Shown here piece by piece: positions 11,708 to 53,713 of a stretch of DNA of 64,000 nucleotides (position 1 is its first letter; every line of letters begins with the position of its first letter). The DNA lies in contig FUZR01000004.1 of assembly GCA_900167895.1 (NCBI GenBank), positions 124,001-188,000 on the forward strand, written 5' to 3'. The position numbers were made by a program, and so were the translations under genes. The notes below the pieces were generated by a model, which saw only the letters and a program-made list of their open reading frames with translations, made no database searches and was not told the DNA's origin. This DNA comes from Bacteroidales bacterium WCE2004. Lineage in GTDB: Bacteria > Bacteroidota > Bacteroidia > Bacteroidales > UBA932.

Positions 11708-15958
<4,251 letters not shown>

Positions 15959-15962
15959 ACCC

Positions 15963-16037
15963 ATGCGTAACCTTTACTTCGCAGCTTGTTGTTGTTCCGT
16001 ACCGATCCCGATGACCGGCGCGGAGGGCAAGCTGTAG
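15963..16037 (+). CDS. Cysteine-rich leader peptide of cysK (24 aa)
   Basis: A 24-codon ORF starts at ATG 15963 and ends at TAG 16035-16037. Its peptide runs MRNLYFAACCCSVPIPMTG and ends AEGKL. Codons 9-11 are three TGT cysteine codons in a row, followed by serine. It is followed by competing RNA hairpins, a Rho-independent terminator and then cysK, the gene that makes cysteine. This is the layout of trp- or his-type leader peptides, with cysteine as the sensed amino acid. The peptide is probably only a sensor. The call rests on layout alone, as there is no homology. Confidence 0.68.
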   Translation: MRNLYFAACCCSVPIPMTGAEGKL

Positions 16038-16103
16038 GTAGAGTTTCCGATACAGCTTATTCCGAGAACCTGCCAGTCATCGCGACTGACAGGTTCTTTT
16101 TTT
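15981..16103 (+). promoter_or_regulatory. Cysteine-responsive transcription attenuator of cysK-cysE
   Basis: Four segments can be drawn. Segment 1 (15981-15987) pairs with segment 2 (16029-16035, seven pairs including one G-U). Segment 2 (16032-16039) can instead pair with segment 3 (16068-16076, one bulge). Segment 3 (16065-16078) pairs with segment 4 (16084-16097) to form the terminator, followed by seven Ts. The cysteine codons (15987-15995) touch segment 1. A ribosome stalled there for lack of Cys-tRNA would block 1:2 and free segment 2 to disarm the terminator. A ribosome reaching the stop codon at 16035-16037 would cover segment 2 and let the terminator form. A further 8-bp hairpin, 16029-16036 with 16051-16058, is also possible. 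The mechanism is inferred; the pairings are seen. Confidence 0.65.
16065..16103 (+). terminator. Rho-independent terminator of the cysK leader
   Basis: The stem GAACCTG-C-CAGTC pairs with GACTG-A-CAGGTTC with a single C/A mismatch, has a 5-base loop, and is followed by seven T residues (16097-16103). It lies 27 bases before the cysK start codon and also serves as the attenuator's terminator arm. Confidence 0.88.
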
Positions 16104-16130
16104 GTGTATTATTCTTATATTTATGGTGTC

Positions 16131-17047
<917 letters not shown>

Positions 17048-17048
<1 letters not shown>

Positions 17049-17770
17049 TGGAAGAACTGCTGTCCCAACTGATTGTATTGATGCGCCGGATCGTCTTCCC
17101 CGAGTACCTCGGGCAGGACGACCGGGCGCTTGACCTGATGTCCGTGCGGAGCGTGCTCCGCAAGATTGCCGGCGACAAGATCGCTGATGCCTTCATGGAG
17201 CGTATTCCTTACATTTCCAGGCTGTTGCACACCGACGTGGAGGCCATCGCCGACAACGATCCGGCGGTCACCGACCGGACGGAAGTCGTGCTCTGCTATC
17301 CGGGCATCCGGGTGATGCTCCACTACCGCACCGCGCACGAGCTGCTCCTGCTCGAGGTCCCCGTGGCCCCGCGCCTGCTCACGGAAATGGCCCACTCGGC
17401 CACCGGCATCGACATCCACCCGGGCGCCCAGATTGGCGAATACTTCGCCATCGACCACGGCACCGGCGTGGTGATCGGAGCCACGACCGTCATCGGCAAT
17501 CATGTCATGCTCTACCAGGGCGTCACGCTCGGCGCCAAGAATATCCGATACGATCATGACGGACGGCCGGTCGACGAGCCGCGCCACCCCATCCTGGAGG
17601 ACAATGTGACGGTCTATGCCAACACGACCGTTCTCGGGCGCGTGGTCATCGGCCACGATACCGTGGTCGGCGGCAACGTCTGGCTTACGCACAGCGTACC
17701 GCCGCGCTCACGCATCCTGCAGACCCGCGCCATCGAGCAACCGCTCTTTGCCGACGGCGCCGGCATCTGA
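17048..17770 (+). CDS. cysE: Serine O-acetyltransferase
   Basis: It acetylates serine to O-acetylserine, the substrate of CysK. The 240 residues have a helical N-terminal half and, from about residue 115, a left-handed beta-helix of hexapeptide repeats (IDIHPGAQIGEYFAIDHGTG, VVIGATTVIGNHVMLYQGVTLG). The catalytic His-Asp region HSATGIDIHPGA and the DHGTG motif are present. The start overlaps the cysK stop by one base, so translation is coupled and the two enzymes are made together, as expected for partners of the cysteine synthase complex. Both lie downstream of the cysteine attenuator. Confidence 0.94.
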
Positions 17771-17787: not shown

Positions 17788-17822
17788 GGCGCTGCCCCTC
17801 CAAGGGCAGCGCCGATTTTTTC
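17788..17822 (+). terminator. Terminator after cysE, possibly bidirectional
   Basis: A 10-bp GC-rich stem (17788-17797 with 17804-17813) is followed by GATTTTTT on the plus strand. It is preceded by seven As, which are Ts for the minus strand. It can therefore also stop transcription of the convergent cysK copy 2, which ends about 75 bases to the right. The remaining 17823-17896 stretch contains a further 6-bp hairpin only. Confidence 0.85.
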
Positions 17823-17896: not shown

Positions 17897-18814
17897 CTAT
17901 CTGTCAAAGAGTACTGTCGAGAGGTAGCGTTCGCCCGTATCGGGTAGCAGGGCGACGATGAGCTTGCCGGCATATTCGGGCTTTTTCGCCAGTTTGTAGG
18001 CGGCGCTGAATGCGGCGCCGGAGGAAATGCCGACCAGCAGGCCCAGGCGATCGGCGAGCAGGCGGGCGCCGTCGAAGGCATCGTCATCGCTGACAGTCAG
18101 CACCTTGTCGACATATTCCGCCAGGAAGGTCTGCGGGACGAAACCCGCGCCGATGCCCTGGATCTTGTGCTTGCCCGGTGTGCCCGTCGTGATGACAGCG
18201 GAGGAGGAAGGCTCCACGCCGAAGATCTCGACGCTGCTCTTGTGGGCTTTCAGGCCCTTGCCGGTGCCGCTGACGGTGCCGCCCGTGCCGATGCCGGCCA
18301 CGAAGACGTCCACCTGTCCGTCGGTGTCACGCCAGATCTCCTGCGCGGTGGTCCTTTCATGGGCTGCCGGATTGGCCAGGTTAGTGAATTGCCCGAGGAT
18401 CACAGCGCCGGGAGTATTCTGACGTATTTCTTCGGCCTTGGCGATGGCGCCTTTCATTCCTTCCGCACCGGGCGTGAGGACGATCTGGGCGCCGAAGGCC
18501 TTGAGGAGGTTGCGACGCTCGACGCTCATCGTGTCGGGCATCGTCAGGATGGTGTTGTAACCTTTGGCCCGGCCCACCCAGGCCAGTCCGATGCCGGTGT
18601 TGCCGCTGGTGGGCTCCACGATCGTGGCGCCGGGCTTGAGAATGCCTGATTTCTCGGCGTCTTCGATCATCGCGAGGGCGATACGGTCCTTGACGCTGCC
18701 TCCGGGATTGTTGCGTTCGAGTTTGAGGGCGATGCGCGCCTGCTGTCCTTCCAGGCCGCGGACCTCCAGAAGCGGGGAGTTCCCGATGAGGTCGGTGAGA
18801 TTCTGATACAACAT
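17897..18814 (-). CDS. cysK: Cysteine synthase (O-acetylserine sulfhydrylase), copy 2
   Basis: This second PLP-dependent cysteine synthase has 305 residues like copy 1 and long identical stretches (for example NTILTMPDTMSVERRNLLKA). PLP lysine K42, TSGNTG and the phosphate-binding GTGGTVSGTG are all present, so it should be active. It lies 27 bases behind metY in the same direction and is probably in its operon. It has no cysteine leader peptide in front, so it should be controlled with metY rather than by the attenuator. It may make cysteine from O-acetylserine, or it could be a cystathionine beta-synthase-like variant; motifs favour the former. Confidence 0.93.
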   Translation of the reverse strand: MLYQNLTDLIGNSPLLEVRGLEGQQARIALKLERNNPGGSVKDRIALAMIEDAEKSGILKPGATIVEPTSGNTGIGLAWVGRAKGYNTILTMPDTMSVERRNLLKAFGAQIVLTPGAEGMKGAIAKAEEIRQNTPGAVILGQFTNLANPAAHERTTAQEIWRDTDGQVDVFVAGIGTGGTVSGTGKGLKAHKSSVEIFGVEPSSSAVITTGTPGKHKIQGIGAGFVPQTFLAEYVDKVLTVSDDDAFDGARLLADRLGLLVGISSGAAFSAAYKLAKKPEYAGKLIVALLPDTGERYLSTVLFDR

Positions 18815-18841
18815 GGTATTCTATGCTTTATGGGTGGGGAA

Positions 18842-20128
18842 TCAGTTGTTGCCGAACGCCTGCTCGAGGTCCGCGATGATATCGTCGACGTGCTCCACGC
18901 CGATGGAGAGGCGGATGGTCGTGGGCGTAATGTGCTGCTCCGCAAGCTCCGCGGGGCTGAGCTGGGAGTGCGTGGTCGTGTAGGGATGGATGACCAGGCT
19001 CTTGACGTCGGCCACGTTGGCCAGCAGCGAGAAGATCTTGAGCCGGTCGATGAAGCGCCAGGCATCCTCCTGCGTTCCCTTGATCTCAAACGTGAAGATG
19101 GAAGCGGCCCCGTTTGGGAAATAGCGCTGATAGAGCGCGTGGTCGGGATGGTCGGAAAGTGCGGGATGGTTGACTTTCGCCACCTTGGGATGCTTGGAAA
19201 GGTATTCGACGACCTTGAGCGCATTCTGCGTGTGGCGCTCGATGCGCAACGGCAGCGACTCGACTCCCTGCAGGAGGATCCACGCGTTGAACGGGCTGAT
19301 GGCCGCTCCGGTGTCGCGCAGGATGACGGCACGGATGCGCGTCACGAAGGCGGCGGCGCCGGCCACGTCGGCGAAGACGGCGCCGTGATAGCTCGGATCC
19401 GGTTTGGCGAGCGTGGGGTACTTGTCGGCATTGGCTTTCCAGTCGAACTTGCCGCCGTCCACGATCACGCCGCCGAGGGAGCTGCCGTGGCCGCCGATGA
19501 ACTTGGTCGCGGAGTGGACCACGATGTCGGCTCCGTGCTCGAGCGGACGGATGAGGATGGGCGCGAAGGTGTTGTCCACGATGAAGACGATGTTGTGCCT
19601 GTGGGCCACGGCGGCGATGCCTTCGAAGTCGGCGACATCGGAGTTGGGGTTGCCCAGCGTCTCGGCGTAAATGACCTTGGTGTTGGGTCGTATGGCAGCC
19701 TCCAATGCTTCGAGGTCATTTACGCGGACGATGGTATGTTCGATACCCTGGGTGGAAAGGGTATGGGTGATCAGGTTGTAAGTGCCGCCGTAGAGGTTGT
19801 CCGCGGCGATCACGTGGTCGCCCTGCTGCAGGATGTTCTGCAGGGCGTAGGTGATGGCGGCTGCGCCGGAGGCGACGGCCAGGCCGGCCACGCCGCCCTC
19901 GAGCGCGGCGACGCGCTCTTCGAAGACTGACTGGGTGGAATTGGTCAGACGGCCGTAGATATTGCCGGGGTCACGCAGGCCGAAGCGGTCGGCGGCGTGC
20001 TGGGAGTTGCGGAAGACATAAGAGGTGGTCTGATAGATGGGGACCGCGCGGGAATCGGATGCGGGGTCCGGATTCTCCTGGCCGACGTGGATGGCCAGGG
20101 TCTCGACGTGATAATTCTGCTTGCTCAT
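18842..20128 (-). CDS. metY: O-acetylhomoserine sulfhydrylase (aminocarboxypropyltransferase)
   Basis: This Cys/Met metabolism PLP enzyme forms homocysteine from O-acetylhomoserine and sulfide. It is 428 residues from the ATG at 20128 (MSKQNYHVETLAIHVGQE). An upstream in-frame start at 20182 would add 18 low-complexity residues inside the promoter and is rejected. The PLP lysine sits in SATKFIGGHGSSLGG, and the following GGVIVDGGKFDW is typical of MetY rather than MetB or MetC. Length (about 430) also fits MetY. It is divergent from an Lrp/AsnC regulator with a palindrome in the shared promoter region. The product homocysteine feeds MetH. Confidence 0.92.
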   Translation of the reverse strand: MSKQNYHVETLAIHVGQENPDPASDSRAVPIYQTTSYVFRNSQHAADRFGLRDPGNIYGRLTNSTQSVFEERVAALEGGVAGLAVASGAAAITYALQNILQQGDHVIAADNLYGGTYNLITHTLSTQGIEHTIVRVNDLEALEAAIRPNTKVIYAETLGNPNSDVADFEGIAAVAHRHNIVFIVDNTFAPILIRPLEHGADIVVHSATKFIGGHGSSLGGVIVDGGKFDWKANADKYPTLAKPDPSYHGAVFADVAGAAAFVTRIRAVILRDTGAAISPFNAWILLQGVESLPLRIERHTQNALKVVEYLSKHPKVAKVNHPALSDHPDHALYQRYFPNGAASIFTFEIKGTQEDAWRFIDRLKIFSLLANVADVKSLVIHPYTTTHSQLSPAELAEQHITPTTIRLSIGVEHVDDIIADLEQAFGNN

Positions 20129-52429: not shown

Positions 52430-52447
52430 CAGCCGAATATTAACCTA

Positions 52448-52496
52448 ACGAGGAGAGATTTGATTGCTTGCAACCTCGTCAAAAATGCTAAAAGAG
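52448..52496 (+). promoter_or_regulatory. SAM-II-type riboswitch of metK
   Basis: Stem P1 is ACGAGG (52448-52453) with CCTCGT (52474-52479). Its loop holds GATTTG and GCTTGCAA. Downstream comes AAAAATGCTAAAAGAG, whose TGC (52486-52488) can pair back to GCA (52470-52472) of the loop, giving the H-type pseudoknot of the class. The GATTT, TTGCA and AAATG...GCTAAAAAG elements and their order match SAM-II aptamers as I remember them. It ends at the AAAAGAG just before the ATG at 52497, so SAM binding would hide the ribosome site. Ligand binding is inferred from the match. Confidence 0.78.

Positions 52497-53713
<1,217 letters not shown>

Follow-up and report, generated by a model that had tools for sequence, protein, structure and literature searches.

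A candidate cysteine-responsive transcription attenuator between rpoC and cysK-cysE in the Bacteroidales

Background

The trp attenuator of Escherichia coli follows a logic of alternative pairings, in which leader segments pair as 1:2, 2:3 and 3:4 and the codons being read lie just before or within segment 1. Attenuation of this class is already known in forms that come close to the locus analyzed here, both before tryptophan genes in the Bacteroidota and, with Cys codons, before cysS in the Rhodobacterales. Bacteroid-trp (RF01692, which appears in a table of PMC2864571) is a Bacteroidota element in which a codon run in a leader peptide precedes a biosynthetic gene, the amino acid sensed being tryptophan. 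The uORFC-8-2 element, an upstream ORF with two conserved tandem Cys codons and an intrinsic terminator, has been proposed to act through ribosome-mediated attenuation; it is reported only before cysS in Rhodobacterales, where it controls cysteinyl-tRNA synthetase, and the portion of the source available to us describes no alternative antiterminator pairing for it (PMC8632094). In the Actinobacteria, poly-Cys ORFs preceding cysteine genes were reported in 2005 with an unknown mode of action; their Cys run is close to the stop, and a conserved terminator was not found with them (PMC1262725). Mycobacterial polycysteine upstream ORFs were named "cysteine-responsive attenuators" in the title of Canestrari 2020, as cited in PMC13236596, and mycobacterial cysteine genes were later described as translationally attenuated (PMC13236596). 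Within the Bacteroidota, the Flavobacterium psychrophilum transcriptome has given hints that leader-peptide attenuators precede amino-acid operons, cysteine not being named in the available part of that report (PMC9723704), and the transcriptome of Bacteroides thetaiotaomicron has revealed short, leader-peptide-like ORFs in long 5' UTRs (PMC7366714). A term search in the text of a genome-wide terminator survey gave no mention of cysK or "Bacteroid-" (PMC2965389), and we identified no description of a Cys attenuator acting on cysK or cysE of the Bacteroidota in the accessible text of the open-licence literature searched.

The present work concerns a stretch of 64,000 nucleotides from Bacteroidales bacterium WCE2004 (contig FUZR01000004.1), hereafter the window. 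To judge from sequence comparison, the region between its rpoC and cysK genes most likely holds a real, conserved and Cys-specific attenuator, and the probable placement of this element as the terminator of rpoBC is unusual. The element resembles Bacteroid-trp in its phylum and in the codon run of a leader peptide before a biosynthetic gene, but its codons are Cys codons and RF01692 does not match it at the gathering threshold or at E<=5. It shares tandem Cys codons and an intrinsic terminator with uORFC-8-2, yet it precedes cysK-cysE and has an alternative antiterminator pairing. Like the actinobacterial leaders it is a poly-Cys ORF before cysteine genes, but it combines a terminator with a conserved antiterminator, and the hallmarks of the mycobacterial type (absence of a terminator and a Cys run placed close to the stop) are not found in it. 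As opposed to the E. coli trp attenuator, with which it shares the 1:2/2:3/3:4 logic, it has Cys codons, a protector reaching 5' of these codons, an antiterminator strand inside the leader ORF and no recognizable promoter of its own.

Organization of the locus and its Cys codons

On the plus strand of the window, the gene order is rpoC, leader ORF, terminator, cysK and cysE. The stop codon (15956-15958) of rpoC (11708-15958) lies 4 nt 5' of the leader ORF, MRNLYFAACCCSVPIPMTGAEGKL, which runs through 24 codons from an ATG start to a TAG stop at 16035-16037 (15963-16037). Its codons 9-11 are three consecutive Cys codons (TGT TGT TGT, 15987-15995), the proposed sensor. An intrinsic terminator hairpin follows at 16064-16098, with arms at 16064-16078 and 16084-16098 and a run of seven U residues at 16097-16103; the hairpin is missing from a consensus terminator scan and was recovered by folding, and covariation in relatives supports it. 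The leader RNA as a whole is more stable than expected (z -4.8), none of 200 shuffles being equally stable. The product of cysK (16131-17048) is a cysteine synthase A (TIGR01139, 418 bits, over the cut-off), and cysE (17048-17770), whose start overlaps the cysK stop, has serine O-acetyltransferase as its top match (TIGR01172), at 148 bits under a cut-off of 211. A sequence-only reading of this DNA had already pointed out the 24-codon ORF with its three TGT codons, the terminator with its U7 tract and the role of the downstream genes in making cysteine. All three were recovered here, the NCBIfam assignment of cysE remaining below its cut-off.

Several further elements surround this locus. A second cysK, 85% identical to the first, lies on the minus strand at 17897-18811 (within 17897-20122), behind an O-acetylhomoserine sulfhydrylase gene and convergent with cysE, and a terminator-like hairpin scored on both strands (17788-17813) separates this region from cysE; the upstream region of the second cysK of the genome (L012) is without a Cys leader. 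An Rfam scan of the window also placed a SAM-II riboswitch at 52444-52501 on the plus strand (59.6 bits, gathering threshold 44). At the leader site itself the scan returned nothing at the gathering threshold, and at E<=5 solely a microRNA family far under threshold. Identity as a riboswitch or T-box was thus rejected, there being no Rfam match at gathering and the site not qualifying as a T-box.

The triplet of Cys codons is not rare in itself, since 11 TGY triplets are observed on both strands of the window against 2.9 expected, and it is hence the position of the Cys run that counts. To place it in context, we assembled 200 distinct 400-base upstream regions of cysK, drawn from samples of the genus, the family and the order as well as from contigs of named genomes, Clostridia included. 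The counts refer to a sample of at most 30 places per search plus 40 further places, in which L099, a duplicate of L017, was counted together with it and from which L039, with its partial cysK, was set apart. Mini-ORFs, defined as ATG ORFs of 6-60 codons containing three consecutive Cys, are present in 20 of the 200 regions (by record title, 15 from Bacteroidales and 5 from Clostridia), one of these records being Candidatus Cryptobacteroides onthequi (L099), whereas 20 shuffled sets contained 0.15 on average and never more than 1, and the opposite strand had 1 in 200. The expectation that other Bacteroidales would carry ORFs with repeated Cys codons before cysK was in this way borne out. When triples of all 20 residues were compared in such mini-ORFs, Cys was the commonest and Leu came second with 13. 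The other 180 regions, some of them within the same genus, lack a Cys-run leader, and the leader of one congener (L013) reads MRNMYFAACCCSVPIPMTGAEGKL.

The leader tends to be present where cysE adjoins cysK. Of the Bacteroidales loci, it is found in 13 of the 29 in which cysE is adjacent and in 1 of the 47 in which it is not (Fisher p 5e-6, on rows that are related), in a test that left out 40 loci without downstream flank and loci with fewer than 500 downstream bases. A plain pattern of five Cys codons was discarded as uninformative, since it matched 190 of 198 genomes of the phylum, and blastn of the leader region found 9 of 199 family genomes, with just cysK starts or short matches beyond the own locus.

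Alternative pairings in the leader

Folding of the window leader yields a two-layered protector around the Cys codons. Its outer stem, obtained in the MFE fold and tested in relatives, pairs 15972-15990 with 16026-16043, the 3' half spanning the leader stop. The inner protector pairs segment 1 (15995-16007) with 16013-16025 and has a counterpart in the alignment of relatives described below. Segment 2, the 5' strand of the antiterminator, is located within the leader ORF at 16010-16019, as indicated by folding, pairing tests and covariation, and its partner, segment 3 (16072-16081, from covariation and folding), overlaps the 5' arm and loop of the terminator. The resulting helix has an A-C mismatch close to its middle, and in folding it can take a longer form that joins 16006-16025 with 16060-16085.

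The sequence-only reading had drawn these pairings somewhat differently. The pairing of its segment 1 (15981-15987) with 16029-16035 is real, and the full 15981-15988:16028-16035 helix was found, but its role is that of a part of the protector. The antiterminator of that reading, 16028-16035:16051-16058, did not hold: it stops 5' of the terminator stem and does not overlap it, so that alone it is unable to block termination, and a hairpin located between segments 2 and 3 beats shuffles (p<=0.05) in 3 of 10 representatives. The conserved antiterminator is instead 16010-16019:16072-16081, inside which the former helix nests as an accessory hairpin (16028-16058) that is not general among relatives.

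Conservation and covariation

For the analysis of covariation we relied on an alignment of 15 Bacteroidales leaders (A2), whose columns begin at the first Cys codon and end with the U-run. It omits L033, in which no terminator was found, and includes L039, which is misaligned by a few columns and was counted as is; seven of the leaders belong to one genus, and the cells of the alignment are hence not independent events. The terminator (columns 101-108:125-132) is paired in 89.2% of cells, with a covariation of 0.419 versus 0.217 in shuffled alignments and changes on both sides in 6 of its 8 pairs. The antiterminator, which joins the leader ORF to the 5' arm of the terminator (columns 33-42:103-112), is paired in 87.2% of cells; its covariation of 0.395, versus 0.294 when shuffled, is reached in none of 500 shuffles and falls to at most 0.114 when the pairing is slid, and its pairs changed on both sides are not above shuffles (64 of 500 reach their number). 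The inner protector, a small hairpin predicted by RNAalifold right after the Cys codons and holding the 5' strand of the antiterminator, is paired in 90.0% of cells, with a covariation of 0.475 versus 0.387 (4 of 500 shuffles reach it) and pairs changed on both sides again not above shuffles (393 of 500). Covariation of 1:2, 2:3 and 3:4, which the earlier reading had named as a check, is therefore above shuffled values for all three, taking 1:2 as the inner protector and 2:3 as corrected above.

Tests on individual leaders point in the same direction. For 7 of 10 representatives taken from 15 leaders, the 2:3 pairing surpasses that of shuffled leaders (p<0.05), and the summed energy of pairing with the own rather than a permuted segment 3 gives p = 0.00055, the own segment 3 being the single best partner in merely 2 of the 10. 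Against dinucleotide-shuffled leaders, p<=0.024 was obtained in 9 of the 14 leaders, out of 16, in which the terminator was placed automatically; the placement in L027 was wrong and was set by hand, and the terminator of L013 is present with a broken U-run. One leader, L029, gives no support to 2:3 (p 0.67 and 0.52). Seven leaders found later (L221, L227-L231 and L235) yielded p values of.004,.058,.025,.001,.002,.016 and.005, that is, below 0.05 in 6 of 7, in a test that is partly dependent on the search model, R1: segments 2 and 3 enter this model with their letters, and L221, L229 and L230 resemble some of its members. The outer protector stem reaches p<0.05 in 4 of the 10 representatives and 3 of the 7 later leaders.

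Outside the Cys run the peptides vary widely (SVPIPMTGAEGKL, AIRKVGRRCRAY, TILSDWYGV), and the pairings and their spacing persist. Some loci depart from the pattern. In L033, a leader with five Cys codons ending at the stop precedes cysK and no T-run terminator was found, so a different mode is possible there. In L024 and L101, on the other hand, cysK is preceded by a terminator whose CCTGCCAATC arm is similar, but not by a Cys leader, and the element is perhaps a decayed copy.

Proposed switching mechanism

A codon run, a terminator, a conserved antiterminator, a protector and genes that make the amino acid sensed are the components of a trp-type attenuator, and all are found at this locus. 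We consider it highly probable, from the sequence evidence, that the element controls cysK-cysE by ribosome-mediated transcription attenuation in response to the supply of cysteinyl-tRNA. The trp-style Cys attenuator put forward by the earlier reading is thus upheld as the best account of the region, with Cys runs, terminator and covarying alternative pairings conserved. The parts, their conservation and their covariation can be read from sequence; from them we infer ribosome stalling, read-through and a response to cysteine, as well as the read-through from rpoBC discussed below.

With ample Cys-tRNA, the ribosome would pass the Cys codons, reach the leader stop and cover segment 2; the terminator would then form and transcription would stop at about 16097-16103. 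With scarce Cys-tRNA, the ribosome would stall at 15987-15995 and disrupt the protector hairpin, so that segment 2 could pair with the emerging 5' arm of the terminator and the polymerase would read into cysK-cysE. If no ribosome were present, the protector would be expected to hold segment 2, making termination the default.

The edge of a stalled ribosome lies about 12-13 bases beyond the A-site codon. In folds of the window leader without a ribosome there are no 2:3 pairs in RNA extending to 16080 and about 1 expected pair in RNA extending to 16085, and stalling of a ribosome on the Cys codons raises this to about 9-10 expected pairs. The same stalled state was computed for 22 leaders, and all 22 form the antiterminator, with at least 9.5 expected 2:3 pairs each; controls with a shuffled segment 2 average 4-8 pairs and are surpassed by the real leader (p<0.05) in 13 of the 22 cases. 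When the ribosome is absent, the antiterminator has fewer than 2 expected pairs in 12 of the 22 leaders, the window scoring 2.07 by the bounds of that test. With a ribosome at the leader stop only the terminator is left in the fold, since segment 2 is then left out by construction. At equilibrium the complete window RNA favours the terminator even when the ribosome is stalled, and the switch must therefore be kinetic; such a dependence on timing is usual for attenuators.

Three rival explanations were considered. Mycobacterial cysteine genes have been described in M. smegmatis as subject to translation attenuation (PMC13236596), and by analogy the stalled ribosome might alter access to the cysK start rather than termination, as the Cys run without a detected terminator in L033 could be taken to indicate. 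A terminator was nonetheless placed automatically in 14 of 16 leaders and is also present in L013, albeit with its broken U-run, and the conserved alternative pairing is aimed at the terminator arm, all of which makes translational control unlikely. Marginally less likely still is that the hairpin serves only to terminate rpoBC, the Cys ORF having arisen by chance and cysK having its own promoter. The hairpin does lie directly 3' of rpoC, it is the sole terminator seen before cysK, and two weak promoter-like sites precede that gene. This account is difficult to reconcile with the same Cys-run leader and pairings in relatives where they do not follow rpoC, often after a sigma-A -7 box, and with the 0.15 such ORFs per 200 upstream regions that shuffling yields; moreover, the sigma-A-like site before cysK is no better than shuffles (p 0.95). 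The least credible of the three is a functional Cys-rich peptide, binding metal or active in redox reactions, next to an unrelated terminator. A run of 3-6 Cys is by itself uncommon, but the peptide diverges outside the run while pairings and spacing are maintained.

Transcription attenuation would provide a complete transcriptional design for cysteine biosynthesis, backed by covariation. It suggests that gut Bacteroidales, which are known mostly from metagenomes, sense cysteine through ribosome stalling.

Relation to the rpoBC operon

The earlier reading had overlooked the position of the leader, 4 nt after the end of rpoC, and its lack of a recognizable promoter of its own. The sigma-A -7 box is described as TAnnTTTG (PMC9723704), and the 300 nt upstream of the window leader contain no site that matches it at as many as 4 of 6 positions, as is to be expected given that the rpoC coding sequence is GC-rich. 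The exact pattern TTTG-N18-22-TANNTTTG occurs three times in the window, none of them near the leader. The congener L013, whose leader is likewise right behind rpoC, has no site with 4 of 6 matches in the 80 bases upstream. Among the 20 other relatives scanned (L013 excluded, and L020 left aside because its contig ends), a -7 box with 6 of 6 matches lies upstream of the leader in 10; in 8 of these, all from one genus, 7-8 nt separate the end of the box from the start codon. The promoter match taken as a whole scores better than shuffles (p<0.05) in 7 of the 20. In two congeners with rpoC nearby (L014 and L016), a terminator-like hairpin of ordinary appearance was seen by eye right after rpoC.

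Since the leader starts 4 nt after rpoC and no sigma-A-like site precedes it within 300 nt, the attenuator would end the rpoBC transcript, and in this species it is probably also the rpoBC terminator. The cysK-cysE transcript, on the same sequence evidence, most likely originates from the rpoBC operon, the polymerase reading through into these genes. As alternatives to such read-through there are two weak sites 5' of cysK. One is the sigma-A-like site, with 5 of 6 matches at -7; the other is a sigma-70-like site at 16086-16115 with 9 of 12 matches, the single match of a sigma-70 scan before this gene, of a promoter type that is ill-suited to the phylum.

We lean, with some reserve, towards a broader scenario in which a Cys attenuator became the terminator of rpoBC, cysK-cysE would be promoterless, the leader would be translated by re-initiation from rpoC and cysteine shortage would lead to rpoBC-cysK-cysE transcription, the whole belonging to a set of poly-Cys attenuators that would span the Bacteroidota and govern genes for cysteine synthesis and sulfate assimilation. 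In such an arrangement, amino-acid state may gate read-through out of the RNA polymerase operon.

Distribution in the Bacteroidota and beyond

The spread of the element was assessed with R1, a covariance model that pairs the terminator and the inner protector and leaves the antiterminator unpaired, at a threshold of E<=0.01; together with the paired changes it renders the proposed design testable. In the family sample R1 matched 17 of 299 genomes, 14 of them with a Cys leader (7 already in the model, the window and 6 new ones, L221 and L227-L231) and 3 without. The order sample gave matches in 11 of 295 genomes, with Cys leaders in the window and in L235, before cysE; the others were 3 Trp leaders, 1 His-rich leader and 5 matches without a leader of these kinds. 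At the level of the phylum, 13 of 296 genomes were matched, with poly-Cys leaders in the window and 5 others, and none in 7. In the own genome the window locus alone is convincing, the next match having an E-value of 1.6, and among 21 named-contig loci R1 found no convincing leader in 20, the exception being L099.

Poly-Cys leaders precede other sulfur genes in other Bacteroidota, another point that had been missed. The five phylum-level leaders stand before cysK (L245), a gene of the nitrite/sulfite reductase family (L249), cysH (L253), a cysteine synthase gene closest to cysM (L256) and, in the case of L254, with five Cys codons and a terminator, a short gene without Pfam or NCBIfam match that appears porin-like by eye. 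The 2:3 test gave p values of.009,.001,.133,.164 and.146 for the five, and it is in view of these mixed values that their sharing the design of the window is merely suggestive. In Clostridia, as identified by record title, poly-Cys mini-ORFs were seen before cysK in L116, L125, L127, L131, L142 and L157. The 2:3 pairing is not significant in the four clostridial leaders with terminators that were tested (p.065 to.889), and we do not therefore claim the same mechanism for this group.

Bacteroid-trp is the sole amino-acid leader family that our Rfam scans matched in the Bacteroidota. Even though it was built from Cys leaders, R1 also matched Trp leaders, with WW or WWW runs, which stand before trpB (L239), trpE (L243) and, by eye, a truncated trpE-like gene (L240). 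RF01692 matches L239 alone of these three, and the Trp leader family may hence exceed the Rfam model. In L242, a short ORF identified by eye, MTRIIRLHHIHHHHHILH, and a terminator precede a 4HBT thioesterase gene, and might constitute a His attenuator.
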